64,000 nucleotides of DNA, taken from contig NZ_CP074436.1 in assembly GCF_016858305.2 (NCBI RefSeq), positions 3,058,001 through 3,122,000 on the forward strand. The letters are read 5' to 3'. The translations under genes and the position numbers were made by a program. A model generated the notes under the pieces. The model had not been told where the DNA came from. It worked only from the letters and a program-made list of their open reading frames with translations, and did not search any database. This DNA comes from Polaribacter sp. Q13 (lineage in GTDB: Bacteria; Bacteroidota; Bacteroidia; Flavobacteriales; Flavobacteriaceae). Below, in pieces: positions 1 through 6,141 of the stretch (the stretch's first letter is position 1; every line of letters begins with the position of its first letter).

Positions 1-99
1 TTCCTTCCATATTCAGGTCCTTTTGTAGGATTATTAGGTCTTGGAGCTGGAGGTCTTAAAAATCCAAGTGATATAACAATTATACAGCAAAATTCTTAA
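1..99 (+). CDS. C-terminal end of a protein, possibly another export precursor peptide (partial)
   Basis: The reading frame is open from the left edge and stops at 97-99. The 32 visible residues are rich in Gly, Leu and Pro, with GPFVGLLGLGAGG near the middle. The 23-base gap to the next gene resembles the gaps inside the precursor cluster (19 and 25 bases), so this may be the core region of a fourth NHLP-type precursor. The leader lies outside the window, so this is inference. It could equally be the tail of an unrelated protein. Confidence 0.5.
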   Translation, partial: FLPYSGPFVGLLGLGAGGLKNPSDITIIQQNS

Positions 100-122
100 T
101 ATAACTATTTAAAACCAAAATT

Positions 123-458
123 ATGGAAATTACAAAAGAACAGCAAGTATTACAACAAGTAATAAACGAAGCATGGGAAAATGCAGATTTTAAGAAAAAG
201 TTAATGGCAAACCCAGTAGATGCCATTGAAGAATTAACTGGCGAAAAATTAAACATCCCAGAAGGAAAAACCTTTGTGGTAAGAGACCAAACAGATGAAT
301 CTACTGTGTATATTAATATACCTGCAGAGCAGAAGTTAGAGGATGTAGAATTGAATGAAGAACAACTAGAAGCAGTTGCAGGTGGTTGTTGGGAACCTTA
401 TGGTCCAGGAAACGATTCTCCTTTAGATGGCTTAATAAAAACATTTTTACCAAAATAA
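123..458 (+). CDS. NHLP-leader precursor peptide 1 (putative RiPP/bacteriocin precursor)
   Basis: This 111-residue protein has the layout of the NHLP (nitrile hydratase alpha-like leader peptide) precursor family. A long helical acidic leader contains AWENADFKKKLMANP and a strand segment VYINIP, and ends in the double-glycine site EAVAGG. Cleavage after Gly-Gly would give an 88-residue leader and a 23-residue core starting with Cys-Trp and rich in Pro and Gly. The core is polar and unlike those of the next two precursors. The leader closely parallels theirs. The likely processing and export protein is the C39 ABC transporter at 1842-4097. Activity and any core modification are unknown. Confidence 0.85.
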   Translation: MEITKEQQVLQQVINEAWENADFKKKLMANPVDAIEELTGEKLNIPEGKTFVVRDQTDESTVYINIPAEQKLEDVELNEEQLEAVAGGCWEPYGPGNDSPLDGLIKTFLPK

Positions 459-477
459 TTTTAAAAAAAATACACGC

Positions 478-843
478 ATGAAAATTACATTAGAACAACA
501 AGAAAAAGGAAAAAAACTGCACCAAGAATTAGTGCAAAAAGCTTGGGAGAGTGCAACCTTTAAAGAGCAATTAATTAATAACCCAGAGATTGCTATTTCT
601 GAAGTTACAGGTGTTACTTCTAAGCTTATAGAAGACACTAAAATAGTGGTTGAAGATCAAACAGACTCAAATATTATTTATTTGAATATTCCTCAAAAAG
701 TGAATTTAGATGATTTTGAGTTGACTGAGGAGCAAATGGAAATGGTTGCAGGGGGAATACTTGTTTCTACAGCTTTAGCTTTAGCTGCTATTTATCTTAC
801 TTGTTTCGGAACGGGGGTAGCTGTATACGCTGCAACACATTAA
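478..843 (+). CDS. NHLP-leader precursor peptide 2 (hydrophobic core)
   Basis: A 121-residue precursor whose leader resembles the flanking precursors (AWESATFKEQLINNP, then IIYLNIP) and ends in MVAGG. The predicted core is 28 residues, very hydrophobic, with one Cys and a GTG step, so it could insert in membranes. It starts 19 bases after precursor 1 ends, consistent with one transcript. The family is known for leaders recycled from nitrile hydratase alpha subunits and cut by C39 peptidases. The biological activity of this core is not known. Confidence 0.85.
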   Translation: MKITLEQQEKGKKLHQELVQKAWESATFKEQLINNPEIAISEVTGVTSKLIEDTKIVVEDQTDSNIIYLNIPQKVNLDDFELTEEQMEMVAGGILVSTALALAAIYLTCFGTGVAVYAATH

Positions 844-868
844 ATAATAATTTTAAAAATAGATTAGA

Positions 869-1246
869 ATGAAAGTTACATTAGAGCAACAAGAGAATGG
901 ACAAGAGTTACTTCAAACATTAGTAACTAAAGCATGGGAAAGTAAAACTTTTAAAGAACAGTTAATTAAAAACCCAAAAACTACAATTGAAAGTGTTACA
1001 GGTGAAAAAATGAACTTAGTCGAAAACGAAAGATTAATTGTAGAGGATCAATCAAATACGGATATTATTTATTTAAATATTCCTCAAAAAATAAATTTAG
1101 AAAATTTTGAATTAACAGATGAACAATTAGAATTAGTATCGGGAGGTCTAATCATAACAGCACTAGCTTTAGCTGGTTATTGTTTATTGGGTCTTGCTAT
1201 TGGTGGAGCAGGTTATGGAGTATGCTCACTTATTGACCAAAGGTAG
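869..1246 (+). CDS. NHLP-leader precursor peptide 3 (hydrophobic, Gly-rich core)
   Basis: A 125-residue precursor with a 93-residue leader nearly identical in layout to precursor 2 (AWESKTFKEQLIKNP, IIYLNIP) ending in LVSGG. The predicted core has 32 residues, two Cys and small-residue steps such as GLAIGGAGYG. The shared leader length and the similar ALALA start of the core suggest it arose by duplication of precursor 2. The two could act as a pair. A short hairpin (CCATAAG/CTTATGG, 1263-1280) follows the gene, but it lacks a convincing T-tract. Confidence 0.85.
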   Translation: MKVTLEQQENGQELLQTLVTKAWESKTFKEQLIKNPKTTIESVTGEKMNLVENERLIVEDQSNTDIIYLNIPQKINLENFELTDEQLELVSGGLIITALALAGYCLLGLAIGGAGYGVCSLIDQR

Positions 1247-1439
1247 TACCAGGTTGTTTAGACCATAAGTATTCTTATGGAATTAGACATTATTTAAAAT
1301 AAACTTCCTCGACTCAAAGGTACGAGGTGTTAAACAGGAAAATTCCTTTTTTCATTTCGATGCAGAGCTTCGGAGAATTAAACCCAAAAATTAATTAAAT
1401 AGTTTCTCTATATACGAGAAATCATATATATATTTGCTT

Positions 1440-1637
1440 ATGAAGAATAAAAAAAATTTGTTACTTATTGGGATTTTTTTAATGCTTTTTGGAAATTTTT
1501 TTCTTTTATTTAAATATTATCTTATAAGTATATTTGTTTTTATTGCTGCAATAATGATACTTGTTATTTATATTTTCAGTAAAGCAAAGAATAAAAGTAA
1601 AGAAGGAATTGAAAAAAAAGATAAGAACACTCCTTAA
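1440..1637 (+). CDS. Small two-helix membrane protein, candidate immunity protein
   Basis: This 65-residue protein has two adjacent hydrophobic segments (about residues 6-25 and 28-48) and a Lys-rich tail. I do not recognise the family. The ATG at 1440 is preferred to a TTG two codons upstream. Its stop codon lies inside the terminator hairpin that closes this unit. The size, topology and position between bacteriocin-like precursors and their exporter fit an immunity or accessory protein, but that role is inferred from context only. Confidence 0.6.
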   Translation: MKNKKNLLLIGIFLMLFGNFFLLFKYYLISIFVFIAAIMILVIYIFSKAKNKSKEGIEKKDKNTP

Positions 1638-1657
1638 ACCTGGAGTGTTCTTTTTTT
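1623..1657 (+). terminator. Rho-independent terminator after the precursor cluster
   Basis: A perfect 11-bp stem (AAGAACACTCC with GGAGTGTTCTT), an 8-base loop and a run of seven T. The stop codon of the small membrane protein lies in the loop. It probably separates the precursor transcript from the exporter genes. Confidence 0.85.
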
Positions 1658-1811
1658 GATAAAAAATAACAACAATTTTTAATACCAATAGAGTGTTGCT
1701 TATCTAATAATTATTATAGTTTCTAGGTTTAATTCTTCAAAAATTATTACTCTTTTAAGTGCCTCAATAGACAGCTTTTTTGTTTTTATCATATGTTTAA
1801 AATAAAGCAAT

Positions 1812-1819
1812 TATATTTG
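1812..1819 (+). promoter_or_regulatory. Bacteroidota -7 box (TATATTTG) before the exporter gene
   Basis: TATATTTG matches TAnnTTTG, 22 bases before the ATG of the ABC transporter. No -33 TTTG is found at the usual spacing, so only the -7 element is supported. Confidence 0.4.
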
Positions 1820-1841
1820 ATTTTTTAGAATACTAAGTAAA

Positions 1842-4097
1842 ATGGCAAACTTTCCTCATTATAGACAATATGACAGTAAAGACTGTGGGCCTACTTGTTT
1901 AAAAATTATTGCCAAGCATTATAAAAAAACCATTGGCATAGAACAATTACGCAAACTGAGTGAAACTACAAGAGTAGGAAGTAGCTTGTTGGGTATTAGT
2001 GAAGCTGCAGAGCAATTGGGTTTTAGATCTTTAAATGTAAAAATTTCTTTAGAAAAATTATGCGAGGCACCTTTGCCTTGCATTTTACATTGGAATAAGA
2101 ACCATTATGTGGTGGTGTATAAAATTACGAATGAGAAATTACGAATTAGGAATACTAAGTTAGAAAGGAAAAATTATTTTAATAAACCTAAAAAACAATT
2201 GGTTTTTTATATTAGTGACCCTGCACACGGTATACTCAAGTATAACCAAACAGACTTTTTAAAACATTGGGTTGGTAACAATGCAAATGAAACTACAGAA
2301 GAGGGTGTTGCTTTATTATTAGAACCAACACCTAAATTTTATAAAGATACTTATGAAAAAGAAACTCCTTCTTTAGGGTTCTCTTTTTTATCTAAATACA
2401 TTTTTAAATACAAACGTTTTTTATGGCAGTTAGTTTTAGGACTATTAGCCGCAAGTTTGTTGCAAGTTTTGTTTCCTTTTTTAACCCAAAGTATTGTAGA
2501 TGTTGGTATTAAAAACCAAGACATCCATTTTATTTATTTAGTGTTATTTGCTCAATTGGCTTTGTTTTTAGGTAAAACAGCGTTAGAGGTTATCCGTAGT
2601 TGGATTTTATTACATCTAAGCGCCAGAATTAATATTTCATTAGTTTCAGATTTTTTTATCAAACTAATGAATTTACCAATTGCTTTTTTTGATACCCGGA
2701 TGACAGGCGATATCTTACAACGTATTAACGACCATAAACGTATAGAACGTATTTTAACCAATTCTTCTTTAAACGTATTATTTTCTATGGTTAATTTGGT
2801 GGTTTTTGGTTTTGTGTTGGCGTATTACAACCTGCAAATTTTCGGAATCTTTGTGGTGGGGAGTTTTTTGTATTTTTTATGGATTACGCTATTTCTAAAA
2901 AAACGACATGATTTAGATTACAAAAACTTTTCGCAAGTAAGTCAAGAGCAATCTAAGGTAATAGAACTTATAAACGGAATGCAAGAAATAAAACTGCATA
3001 ATGCCGAAAAACAAAAACGTTGGAGTTGGGAGTTTTTACAAGCACGTCTTTTTAAAATCTCTATAGAAGGTTTGGCTTTGGAGCAATACCAGAGTGTTGG
3101 GTCTGGTTTTATAAACGAATTAAAAAATATATTGATTACAGTATTGTCGGCTAAATTAGTAATTGATGGTGAAATTACTTTAGGTATGATGTTGGCAATT
3201 AGTTATATTGTTGGTCAATTAAATTCGCCTATTGCTCAATTGATTAATTTTGTGCGAGAAATTCAAGATGCAAAAATATCATTGAATCGTTTGTCAGAAA
3301 TTCATACCAAAGAAGATGAAGAACAACAAAATGTAGAAAAGATTACAGATATTGAAGAGAATGCTGCAATTACTTTGTCAAAAGTTTCCTTTAGATATAT
3401 TGGTTCAGAACAATTTGTTTTAAAAGATTTAGACGTGGTACTTCCTGCCAATAAAATTACAGCTATTGTGGGTGTTAGCGGAAGCGGGAAAACAACGCTT
3501 ATGAAATTGTTGTTAAAATTCTACGAACCCAATACAGGCGATATTAAATTAGGAAATCATGATTTAAAAAACGTTTCTCAAAAAGCCTGGAGAAATCAGT
3601 GTGGCGTGGTACTGCAAGAAGGATTTATTTTTAGCGATACAATTGCCAATAATATTGCGGTGGGTGTAGATGTTGTAGATAAACAAAAATTAGCACATGC
3701 AGTAGATGTTGCCAACATAAAAGAATTTATAGAGAGTTTACCTTTATCTTACAACACCAAAATAGGTATGGAAGGTGTGGGTTTAAGTACAGGTCAAAAA
3801 CAACGTTTACTAATTGCAAGAGCGGTGTATAAAAACCCCAATTTTTTATTTTTTGATGAAGCAACTTCGGCTCTAGATGCCAATAATGAAAAAGTAATTA
3901 TGGAGAAATTGAATACTTTTTTTGAGAATAAAACAGTTTTAGTGATTGCCCACAGACTAAGTACGGTAAAAAACGCAGATCAAATAGTTGTTTTAGACAA
4001 AGGAAAAATAGTTGAGGTTGGTAATCATCAATCTTTAATTAAAGACAAAGGAAATTATTATCATTTAGTAAAAAATCAATTAGAATTAGGAAACTAA
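1842..4097 (+). CDS. Peptidase-containing ABC transporter (C39 protease, double-glycine leader export)
   Basis: A 751-residue inner-membrane transporter that should cut Gly-Gly leaders and export the cores. An N-terminal C39 domain has Cys15 in the QYDSKDCGPTC motif, His88 and Asp126 as the likely triad. Transmembrane helices span about 190-460. The ATPase domain has Walker A GVSGSGKTT (about 545), signature LSTGQ (about 648), Walker B LFFDEATSALD (about 670) and the H-loop AHR. An unusual insert of about 25 residues (96-120) separates His88 from Asp126, and its DNA looks like an intergenic repeat. The gene lies 28 bases before the HlyD-like partner. Confidence 0.95.
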   Translation: MANFPHYRQYDSKDCGPTCLKIIAKHYKKTIGIEQLRKLSETTRVGSSLLGISEAAEQLGFRSLNVKISLEKLCEAPLPCILHWNKNHYVVVYKITNEKLRIRNTKLERKNYFNKPKKQLVFYISDPAHGILKYNQTDFLKHWVGNNANETTEEGVALLLEPTPKFYKDTYEKETPSLGFSFLSKYIFKYKRFLWQLVLGLLAASLLQVLFPFLTQSIVDVGIKNQDIHFIYLVLFAQLALFLGKTALEVIRSWILLHLSARINISLVSDFFIKLMNLPIAFFDTRMTGDILQRINDHKRIERILTNSSLNVLFSMVNLVVFGFVLAYYNLQIFGIFVVGSFLYFLWITLFLKKRHDLDYKNFSQVSQEQSKVIELINGMQEIKLHNAEKQKRWSWEFLQARLFKISIEGLALEQYQSVGSGFINELKNILITVLSAKLVIDGEITLGMMLAISYIVGQLNSPIAQLINFVREIQDAKISLNRLSEIHTKEDEEQQNVEKITDIEENAAITLSKVSFRYIGSEQFVLKDLDVVLPANKITAIVGVSGSGKTTLMKLLLKFYEPNTGDIKLGNHDLKNVSQKAWRNQCGVVLQEGFIFSDTIANNIAVGVDVVDKQKLAHAVDVANIKEFIESLPLSYNTKIGMEGVGLSTGQKQRLLIARAVYKNPNFLFFDEATSALDANNEKVIMEKLNTFFENKTVLVIAHRLSTVKNADQIVVLDKGKIVEVGNHQSLIKDKGNYYHLVKNQLELGN

Positions 4098-4125
4098 TAT
4101 TTAGTTAATAGTTGTAGTTAGCAGC

Positions 4126-5430
4126 ATGCCAGAAATAAAAAATGAACATATAGAACAATTAGAACTTCGAAGCGAAGAAGTACAAGAAATTCTAACGAAA
4201 GTACCAAGTTGGATGGTTCGTTGGGGAAATACACTTTTTTTGTTTTTAATTCTGATGCTTTTGTTAATGTCTTGGTTTATAAAATACCCAGATATTATTA
4301 TATCAGAAGCAATCATTACAACCGAAATTCCTCCCCAAAAAGAATATGCGAGAATTACAGGAAAAATTGACACACTTTTTATAATTGATGGGCAAAATGT
4401 TATTGAAAATGAACCTTTAGCTATCATTGAAAATACGGCTAATTATGAAGATGTATTCTTTTTAAAGGGGGTAATAGACACTATTAAAGTTCAAAAACAA
4501 AAATTTGTTTTCCCTATAGACAAATTACCTATTTTATTTTTGGGTGATATAGAGGCAAGTTATGCTTTGTTTGAAAATAATTATATTCAATATATTTTAA
4601 ACAAAGAATTAGATCCGTTTTCTAATGAAGCCATTGCGAATAAAATTACATCTTCAGAATTAAAACGAAGATTAATCAATTTACAAGCACAGAAATCATT
4701 AAATAGAAGAGAGTTAGCCTTTAAACAAAAAGATTTGGAGAGAAGTAAATCTCTTTTTGACAAAGGCGTTATTTCTGAAAAAGAATACGAAATAAAACAA
4801 TTAGAGTATTTGCAGGCAGAACGGAGTTTTAAAAATATGACTTCCGCTACTTCACAATTAAGAGAAGCCATTTCTGGGAATAAAAAAACCTCTAAAGGAA
4901 CAGAGATAGCTCGTATTAGAGAAGAAATGACTTTATTAAAAAATGTAATTCAGTCTTTTAATCAATTGAAGAAAAGTATTAAGGATTGGGAAATGAAATA
5001 TGTTTTAAGTTCTAAAATGAAAGGTAAAGTTTCTTTTTTAAATTACTGGAATAAAAACCAAACTGTAAATCAGGGAGATTTGGTTTTTACAATTATTCCC
5101 AATCAAACTTCTTCCTTTATAGCTAAACTAAAAACACCTGCTCAAAATTTAGGAAAAGTAAAAATAGGTCAAATAGTAAATGTTAAGCTGCAAAATTATC
5201 CAGATTATGAATTTGGAGTTTTAAAAGGAAAAGTAAACACAATTTCTGAAACCTCAAATAAAAATGGCTTTTATACCATTAAAGTTTCTTTGCCTGACAC
5301 ACTTATTACTTCCTACAATAAAGAAATAGTATTTAAACAAGAAATGCGAGGAACCGCAGAAATTATTACCGAAGATTTACGCTTAATTCAGCGTTTCTTT
5401 TATCAGTTTAATAAGATTCTTGAACGTTAA
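4126..5430 (+). CDS. HlyD family membrane fusion protein (export adaptor)
   Basis: A 434-residue periplasmic adaptor with a short cytoplasmic N-terminus, one membrane helix (about 36-52), a lipoyl-like half-motif near residues 70-100, a long coiled-coil region (about 190-285, containing LERSKSLFDKGVISEKEYE) and a C-terminal beta-barrel part. This is the order typical of HlyD proteins working with C39 ABC exporters. It directly follows the transporter. No TolC-like outer-membrane protein is present, so an unlinked one is presumably used. Confidence 0.92.
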   Translation: MPEIKNEHIEQLELRSEEVQEILTKVPSWMVRWGNTLFLFLILMLLLMSWFIKYPDIIISEAIITTEIPPQKEYARITGKIDTLFIIDGQNVIENEPLAIIENTANYEDVFFLKGVIDTIKVQKQKFVFPIDKLPILFLGDIEASYALFENNYIQYILNKELDPFSNEAIANKITSSELKRRLINLQAQKSLNRRELAFKQKDLERSKSLFDKGVISEKEYEIKQLEYLQAERSFKNMTSATSQLREAISGNKKTSKGTEIARIREEMTLLKNVIQSFNQLKKSIKDWEMKYVLSSKMKGKVSFLNYWNKNQTVNQGDLVFTIIPNQTSSFIAKLKTPAQNLGKVKIGQIVNVKLQNYPDYEFGVLKGKVNTISETSNKNGFYTIKVSLPDTLITSYNKEIVFKQEMRGTAEIITEDLRLIQRFFYQFNKILER

Positions 5431-5642: not shown

Positions 5643-5644
5643 CG

Positions 5645-5726
5645 TACTCAAGGCGGGAATCGAACCCGCACTTCCGAAAAAACTGGATTTTGAATCCAGC
5701 GCGTCTACCAATTCCGCCACTTGAGC
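5645..5726 (-). tRNA. tRNA-Leu (anticodon CAA)
   Basis: An 82-nucleotide tRNA on the minus strand. The acceptor stem pairs GCTCAAG with CTTGAGT (first pair G-U), the discriminator base is A, and the T-arm contains GGTTCGATTCC. The anticodon stem CTGGA/TCCAG frames the loop TTCAAAA, giving anticodon CAA for leucine UUG codons. The variable arm is long, as in class II tRNAs. CCA is not encoded. A broken copy of its 5' part lies 310 bp away at 5988-6036, with a GIY-YIG gene between them. Confidence 0.95.
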
Positions 5727-5732
5727 ATTTAT
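5703..5732 (-). repeat. Direct repeat copy A (inside intact tRNA-Leu)
   Basis: A 30-bp stretch covering tRNA nucleotides 1-24 and six upstream bases. It is repeated exactly at 6013-6042, and the two copies flank the GIY-YIG gene. Confidence 0.9.
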
Positions 5733-5974
5733 TAGGAGTCTCGCAAAGAACGTAATTTTTCTTTTCCTATACCAGATTTCCAATACTTTTCTCTTACTCT
5801 TGCTTCAATTCTAGTTTTTACTTCTTCCACATAAATCAATTTAAAAGGAGCATAAAACTTTGTAGTTCTTTCTCTTAAACCATTATGTCTTTTTATTCTT
5901 TCGTTTAGGTTAGAAGTTAATCCAACATAAATATAATTTTTTGCAATACTAGAAATTGCATAAACGTAGAACAT
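5732..5974 (-). CDS. GIY-YIG nuclease family small protein
   Basis: An 80-residue single-domain protein. The motif pair is YVYAI...YIYVGLT, followed by the conserved Arg and His of NLNERIKRHN and a C-terminal EARVREKYWKSGIGKEK block. This matches the short UvrC-type GIY-YIG proteins common in Bacteroidota. The ATG at 5974 is chosen because the longer frame upstream runs through the tRNA relic and its palindrome and cannot be conserved protein. The gene ends 5 bases before the intact tRNA-Leu. Known relatives in group I introns and mobile elements cut DNA, so a role in placement at the tRNA is plausible but unproven. Confidence 0.9.
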   Translation of the reverse strand: MFYVYAISSIAKNYIYVGLTSNLNERIKRHNGLRERTTKFYAPFKLIYVEEVKTRIEARVREKYWKSGIGKEKLRSLRDS

Positions 5975-5987
5975 AGCTATTAATTTT

Positions 5988-6036
5988 AGCGCGCCTGCCT
6001 GTCGGCAGACAGGTCTACCAATTCCGCCACTTGAGC
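5988..6036 (-). pseudogene. Truncated tRNA-Leu relic with a 20-bp palindromic insertion
   Basis: On the minus strand the first 23 nucleotides match the intact tRNA-Leu. A 20-base palindrome-bearing insert follows (plus strand cctgcctgtcggcagacagg, 5994-6013), and then tRNA nucleotides 24-29 (cgcgct) before similarity ends. The interruption lies at the end of the D-arm. The copy cannot fold as a tRNA. Confidence 0.85.
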
Positions 6037-6042
6037 ATTTAT
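6013..6042 (-). repeat. Direct repeat copy B (tRNA relic)
   Basis: Exact 30-bp match to 5703-5732, in the same orientation. It marks the outer edge of the putative tRNA-associated element. Confidence 0.9.
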
Positions 6043-6141
6043 GAGGTTTTTGAAAAACAATCACCTTTTTTTTGATAGTAGCCTCTTCATTTAGAAACAC
6101 AAATTAAAGAGGACTGCAAATGTATAAAATTATTTTATTTT

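Follow-up and report, generated by a model that had tools for sequence, protein, structure and literature searches.

The window analysed here, a stretch of 64,000 nucleotides of the genome of Polaribacter sp. Q13 (G000, a single contig of 4.42 Mb; window G000:C1:3058001-3122000), begins with the 3' end of a peptide-export locus of about 32 kb that is cut by the window edge. The locus encodes precursors with nitrile-hydratase-like leader peptides (NHLPs), and its last three genes (478-843, 869-1246 and 1434-1637) form a unit that, on balance, probably represents the anatomy of a class IIb two-peptide bacteriocin with NHLP leaders, for which ring-forming modification would not be required. NHLP leaders are commonly taken as marks of precursors of ribosomally synthesized and post-translationally modified peptides (RiPPs) (PMC2887384). 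An earlier note on positions 1-5430 had described an NHLP export cassette with no visible modification enzyme, and had proposed that either the modifying genes lie upstream or the cores are exported unmodified, as a bacteriocin-like type. For the last two precursors the second proposal is the best reading, with the qualification that a split LanB and a DUF7005 protein are encoded upstream.

The three complete NHLP precursors with double-glycine (GG) leaders that the note had listed, together with a C39 ABC transporter and an HlyD adaptor, were recovered from the open reading frame (ORF) list and by profile search (Table 1). The search with TIGR03793 that it had suggested was carried out at the curated cut-off of 50.9 bits. 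The precursor at 123-458 scores above this value (55.3 bits), and the two terminal precursors, alpha (478-843; 49.8 bits) and beta (869-1246; 48.1 bits), score slightly below it (E-values of 1.0e-12 and 3.4e-12), with alignments over positions 3-77 of the 77 profile positions. Genome-wide the profile has 11 matches, nine of them above the cut-off, all located at 3039.7-3059.2 kb, and none of 14 control genomes has a match. Seven further NHLP genes, one of them interrupted, are situated upstream of the window. The cores of the terminal pair have 28 and 32 residues, and the monoisotopic masses computed for unmodified cores are 2809.51 Da for alpha, 3177.73 Da for beta and 2546.25 Da for the 123-458 precursor.

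The organization of the terminal unit is conserved. The last two cores are both hydrophobic in 14 of 20 arrays, and alpha and beta, two adjacent and different precursors that share the NHLP leader with its GG site, represent two distinct families of Gly-zipper-like cores. Among 33 cores 30 GxxxG motifs were observed, compared to 12.1 after shuffling, and none of 2000 shuffles reached this number, although kinship among the cores is ignored in this comparison. The window beta core contains two of these motifs, the window alpha core has no strict GxxxG and only GxxxG-like motifs recognized by eye. A gene that the earlier note did not mention, the ORF at 1434-1637 with two predicted transmembrane (TM) segments, follows the pair. 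An ORF of 50-83 amino acids (aa) with two predicted TM segments is found behind the pair in 14 of 16 arrays. The 16 comprise the 14 arrays with a hydrophobic pair plus L032 and L085, where just one of the two final cores qualifies; the exceptions are L032, with a one-TM ORF only, and L035, with almost no gap. The rest of the 20 arrays, those of G013, L036, L067 and L048, lack a hydrophobic pair and were outside this hand check. An automatic rule retrieved a two-TM ORF in 13 of 14 pair gaps. Among 89 further same-strand gaps with lengths of 250-1100 bases there was one such case, and as it is the pair gap of G035, which had been fetched again as L042, the control value becomes 0/88. The window two-TM protein matches L056 17730-17897 (phmmer E-value 3.4e-7), while the remaining two-TM proteins have a common architecture and sequence likeness within subgroups. 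The pair unit was found in several Bacteroidota lineages. The class IIb profile PF10439 gave weak matches to window ORFs (E-values of 0.007 and 0.016; 16.8 and 15.6 bits, with a cut-off of 27.1).

The proposed mode of action is as follows. The leaders would direct alpha and beta to the NHLM machinery whose genes (C39/ABC1, ABC2, HlyD, TolC and cNMP-binding protein) lie 9-17 kb upstream, where a C39 peptidase would cleave after GG. The two cores would exit the cell, meet in the target membrane and pack as helices via GxxxG-type motifs, and the membrane would thereby be permeabilised, while the two-TM protein would shield the producer. A ring-forming modification would be unnecessary. Other 3' cargo exists, as the arrays of G013, a genome assigned to the genus of Q13, and L048 end in cores of the WFV...GDGDPG type and include a DUF4135 protein of 618-650 aa and a membrane-like protein of 287-294 aa.

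The upstream inspection that the earlier note had recommended was performed on genome positions 3025-3063 kb, with profile searches from 3030 kb onwards, and it revealed an NHLM exporter, a DUF7005 protein, two cyclases, a split LanB and more NHLPs. The NHLM export system is complete at genome 3042900-3049302, with ABC1, ABC2 and HlyD all above their cut-offs. The 51-aa GG peptide encoded between the AraC gene and the first NHLP gene has a match to the CTB family of bacteriocins (26.8 bits, below the cut-off of 32).

Table 1. Features of the NHLP locus of Polaribacter sp. Q13 and its flank, in genome order (G, genome position; W, window position; profile, identified by reading and profiling the region)
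Feature	Position	Strand	Evidence and remarks
S9 peptidase	G 3031033	-	profile
TPR-AraC	G 3033552	-	profile
LanB_C (split LanB)	G 3035245-3036108	-	profile
LanB_N (split LanB)	G 3036108-3038345	-	profile
AraC regulator	G 3038686	+	profile
51-aa GG peptide, S/T-rich tail	G 3039481-3039636	+	EMNKSITSSDFSQSF; between AraC and first NHLP
NHLP	G 3039697	+	profile
NHLP copy with in-frame TAA	G 3040202	+	profile
Cyclic-nucleotide (cNMP)-binding protein	G 3040779	+	TIGR03896, 115.6 bits, below cut-off of 161
TolC	G 3041310	+	profile
NHLM HlyD (420 aa)	G 3042900	+	TIGR03794, 233.1 bits vs cut-off of 156.2, on 367-aa part
NHLM ABC1	G 3044171	+	TIGR03796, 1051.5 bits vs cut-off of 853.3
NHLM ABC2	G 3046387	+	TIGR03797, 868.4 bits vs cut-off of 709.4
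DUF7005 (HExxH protein)	G 3049309	+	profile
GAF/PAS/cyclase	G 3050436	+	profile
DUF3667-like gene	G 3052642	-	profile
NHLPs	G 3053449, 3053802	+	profile
TPR-cyclase	G 3054151	+	profile
Further NHLPs	G 3056589 to window	+	profile
Fourth NHLP precursor, C-terminal end	W 1-99	+	core NVFLPYSGPFVGLLGLGAGGLKNPSDITIIQQNS; gene start upstream, G 3057731
NHLP precursor, 111 aa	W 123-458	+	core CWEPYGPGNDSPLDGLIKTFLPK; TIGR03793, 55.3 bits
NHLP precursor alpha, 121 aa	W 478-843	+	hydrophobic core ILVSTALALAAIYLTCFGTGVAVYAATH; TIGR03793, 49.8 bits
NHLP precursor beta, 125 aa	W 869-1246	+	hydrophobic core LIITALALAGYCLLGLAIGGAGYGVCSLIDQR, two GxxxG; TIGR03793, 48.1 bits
Small protein of 67 aa with two TM segments (start TTG; ATG in frame at 1440)	W 1434-1637	+	putative immunity protein of the pair
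Terminator-like hairpin (1623-1652) plus T-run	W 1623-1660	+	overlaps end of two-TM gene; closes three-gene unit
C39 peptidase ABC transporter, non-NHLM type	W 1842-4097	+	TIGR03796, 422.1 bits vs cut-off of 853.3
HlyD-type adaptor, partner of C39 transporter	W 4126-5430	+	profile

The C39/HlyD pair of the window does stand beside the NHLP genes, as the note had observed, but its membership in the NHLP system is weakly supported, as a genuine NHLM exporter is encoded upstream and orthologues are located in other GG-peptide arrays. Its role as the default NHLP exporter was rejected, because the TIGR03796 cut-off is not reached and orthologues occur in non-NHLP settings. Orthologues with 72-73% identity are present in six genomes of the same genus without NHLP matches (G028, G020, G002, G022, G003, G027) and, on another contig, in G035, and three genomes of the same order contain orthologues with 66-67% identity. 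The seven same-genus orthologues stand among short-leader GG peptides, most of which contain Cys, and in the one order-level case that was fetched (G037) the neighbours look LanB-like by eye. In L108, L117 and, as judged by eye, L137, the surroundings of LanB also contain homologues of both proteins or of the C39 transporter. Beside the window pair no short-leader GG peptides were seen in the Q13 genome. The pair can be regarded as a second exporter, which may have been recruited by the NHLP array or may serve the short LanB peptide described below. Seven loci of the same flavobacterial genus (L130-L136) carry arrays of short-leader peptides of the type MKKxILNLGK...GG, mostly Cys-containing, around C39/HlyD orthologues, and a protein of roughly 530 aa recurs in these loci.

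The window ORFs were profiled against Pfam (478-843, 869-1246, 1434-1637) or against Pfam and NCBIfam (1842-4097, 4126-5430), and none of these five ORFs within 1-5430 is a RiPP enzyme. In this respect the earlier note was right for the window, but the absence is in part an effect of the window edge, and the view that the locus contains no enzyme at all was rejected, as LanB and DUF7005 are encoded upstream. Genome-wide, LanC (PF05147), DUF4135 (PF13575) and YcaO (PF02624) have no match in Q13 and LanB (PF04738) has a single one, so that neither the LanB plus LanC combination of class I, nor LanM/DUF4135 of class II, nor the YcaO of thiazole/oxazole-modified microcins (TOMMs) is found. A distribution that weighs against unmodified cores is seen in other genomes: 10 of 14 pair-bearing arrays have DUF4135 alongside, with array and DUF4135 together on another small contig in L046 and with a truncated similar ORF as the evidence in L035. 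The pair arrays without DUF4135 are those of Q13, G035, L037 and L056. The genome that contains L056 (G359, completeness not stated) has the pair unit and no matches to LanB, DUF4135, LanC or YcaO, and therefore the pair can exist without any of these enzymes. Cys-containing cores make up 29 of 70 in the presence of DUF4135 versus four of 24 in its absence (G000, G035, L037, L056 and L085, with L067 left out). In the fetched loci the motif CxxxCxxC was looked for, and it was found in three of 235 unassigned ORFs of at least 200 aa, in L075 and L082, few of these ORFs having been profiled; no genome-wide search for radical SAM, MNIO, P450 or methyltransferase proteins was made.

Several NHLM cassettes encode further candidate enzymes. 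DUF4135 proteins of 483-637 aa without a LANC domain match (G013 719484-721340, L032, L033, L036, L039, L054) are apparently LanM-type dehydratases without a cyclase domain. Matches to UDPGT (L034, L047) and JmjC-type proteins (L026, L033, L035, L099, L101) in or beside such cassettes might represent additional tailoring enzymes, i.e., glycosyltransferase-like and JmjC-type.

The split LanB opens an alternative, namely that the NHLP cores are its substrates and are exported in dehydrated form, with dehydroalanine and dehydrobutyrine (Dha/Dhb) and, because the genome has no LanC match, without lanthionine rings. This class-I-type dehydratase (PF04738 plus PF14028; genome 3035245-3038345) is located 20-23 kb upstream of the window, and the S9/TPR-AraC/LanB_C/LanB_N module is divergent from the cassette AraC gene in Q13, G035, G354, G356 and G361; in G351 the same module, with AraC and a single NHLP next to it, lies at the end of a contig. 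Including G363 (one protein of 1024 aa), G366 and G358, LanB is near the cassette in nine of the 21 cassette-bearing genomes searched, a set outside which L035 lies, and 18 of the 21 have a LanB match. Thus, the claim that modifying genes are found upstream holds in part, and an adjacent tailoring enzyme, which the earlier note had named as evidence against its reading, is present in part, as this syntenic LanB and the candidate DUF7005. However, in six of six module loci a peptide gene of 45-72 aa lies between S9 and TPR-AraC. The peptide of Q13, MRTKCENKTIENKLSLEKFQISKISNPQFILGGGDDDPIKTTPTIIDDANN, has a leader with LSLEKFQISKI that ends in GG; Bacteroidetes class I precursors are described with an LxLxKx5L leader motif and a GG ending in PMC7268733, and the Q13 leader fits this motif with I in place of the last L. 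Because a precursor of its own is encoded in every one of these loci, LanB most likely serves this short LxLxKx5I-GG peptide. In addition, LanB is without a match in three genomes that carry the cassette, namely G013, G359 and, with the 3' part of it, G355, and LanB action on the NHLP cores seems rather unlikely. Neither is it plausible that the window precursors are decaying, functionless leftovers. One upstream NHLP copy (genome 3040202-3040540, L021 15202-15540) does have an in-frame TAA, but the other 10 NHLP genes of the genome are intact, leaders, GG sites and terminal unit are conserved and spacings are mostly short, which leaves very little room for decay.

DUF7005 is the second enzyme candidate, as a zincin-like HExxH protein that would hydrolyse or oxidise cores or leaders and thus be the true NHLP tailoring or processing enzyme. 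Residues H236, E237, H240, H255-D256-E257 and A260-D261-Y262 are invariant among 41 aligned homologues, a pattern that we take to resemble the HExxH...ExxxD arrangement of gluzincins. NHLM ABC2 is present in seven of 295 genomes belonging to the class; five of these seven, and no other genome, have DUF7005, which there adjoins ABC2. With DUF7005 as a probe 56 loci were collected; using the Q13 proteins as queries (best hit, E-value up to 1e-4), ABC1 plus ABC2 were found in 48, the cNMP protein in 46, NHLPs in 37 and the TPR-cyclase in 16 (weak in L078), and LanB in none within 10 kb flanks, LanB modules being found only with extended flanks. HEXXH enzymes acting on NHLP-type precursors are described in PMC12636437. 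However, sequence searches gave no match to NCBIfam at E-values up to 10, including TIGR04267 (alphaKG-HExxH peptide hydroxylase), and none to the PDB at E-values up to 1, and a relative for a profile comparison was found in none of 198 genomes. The AlphaFold model (predicted local distance difference test, pLDDT, of 93) has no Foldseek match in the PDB below an E-value of 0.001, and its similarity to solved structures is weak: the top-ranking ones include the zincin peptidases DPP III (4.1), collagenase G (3.5) and Dcp (3.2), together with unrelated folds that score similarly. The protein may merely aid export or degrade peptides, and the tailoring role is possible, but we consider it only tentatively. 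In two Flavobacterium loci (L071, L073) an NHLP stands beside DUF7005 with no exporter within 10 kb; the ThiF-like, GNAT-like and LuxR-like genes recognized nearby by eye have similar counterparts flanking the cassette in G367 and L106. The cyclases suggest yet another function, in which the locus mainly serves signalling: exported NHLP peptides would be sensed by the TPR-adenylate cyclase, with GTLPPAVQGITSSLNGVELSE as the core that may be its partner peptide, and cAMP would act on the cNMP protein to gate export. The periplasmic location and the adenine specificity were assigned from the sequence by eye. Signalling accounts for one peptide per locus and not for a pair, and it is compatible with a bacteriocin; as the main function it appears improbable. 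Both functions could be united in a self-contained, cAMP-gated and quorum-controlled bacteriocin launcher of Bacteroidota, in which one conserved NHLP peptide would be exported and then sensed in the periplasm by its partner TPR-adenylate cyclase, cAMP would open the NHLM exporter by binding to the cNMP protein and a swappable 3' cargo would be fired into neighbours, the cargo here being the NHLP-led two-peptide bacteriocin with its two-TM immunity protein; taken as a whole, this scheme is speculative and would have to be called doubtful.

Next to the cassette, a tRNA-Leu(caa) gene is located at 5644-5726 on the minus strand. A stretch of 28 bases comprising its 5' end with flank (5704-5731) is repeated exactly at 6014-6041. 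Between the two copies lies the greater part of a small ORF (5732-6100), which resembles a GIY-YIG nuclease by eye. Repeats and ORF together possibly represent a mobile insertion.

If the class IIb reading of the terminal unit is true, the NHLP leader and the NHLM platform also deliver plain two-peptide bacteriocins, and the pair offers testable peptides and candidate immunity genes in Bacteroidota. PMC7268733 names the pinensins as the only Bacteroidota lanthipeptides isolated by 2020. Among the literature matches listed there was no account of an unmodified pair with NHLP leaders, most subscription papers being outside reach. Likewise, no paper was found that links Bacteroidetes lanthipeptide dehydratases with NHLPs, and a search for class IIb GxxxG bacteriocins in flavobacteria returned nothing relevant (only a paper on silver nanoparticles). 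Two constant parts of the platform have no paper that we found, DUF7005 and the peptide/TPR-cyclase pair.

Comparison with known systems places the locus between several types. With Bacteroidetes class I lanthipeptide clusters (PMC7268733) it shares the LanB_N/LanB_C/TPR-AraC/S9 genes and a short precursor, a partial fit, but Q13 has no LanC match and the leader of the NHLP precursors is different. The Burkholderia NHLP-type genes (NHLP-Burk, TIGR03795) also occur in tandem pairs, and a two-peptide product has been proposed for them (PMC2887384); however, they are TOMM precursors of Burkholderia, and Q13 has no YcaO match. Typical NHLP/NHLM systems (TIGR03793/03794/03796/03797) have the leader family, the GG site, several paralogous precursors and the exporter pair with HlyD in common with this locus (PMC2887384), and Haft et al. 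(2010) reported there that the exporter, and not the tailoring enzymes, tracks the NHLPs, which they regarded as precursors of modified peptides. In contrast to these systems, no TOMM or LanM enzyme was found here, DUF7005 and cyclases belong to the locus, and the cores of the terminal pair, rather than being hypervariable, show conservation between lineages, with a small two-TM protein encoded behind them. In class IIb bacteriocins, each of the two precursors is described with an N-terminal leader, GxxxG motifs occur and TM proteins provide immunity. Some of these immunity proteins have as few as 42 to 55 aa, and the gene for the 42-aa one lies right behind its pair; the majority are larger and have at least four predicted TM segments (PMC6957408, PMC6382864). 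The candidate unit described here differs from class IIb by a nitrile-hydratase-like leader of about 90 aa, a Gram-negative host and TolC-type export. The similarities to plantaricin S, carnobacteriocin XY and lactococcin G comprise two neighbouring precursors with GG leaders, cores that are short and hydrophobic, motifs of the GxxxG or GxxxG-like type, a small TM immunity-like gene downstream and a C39 exporter in the locus, and the NHLP region ahead of GG itself resembles class II bacteriocin leaders (PMC2887384).

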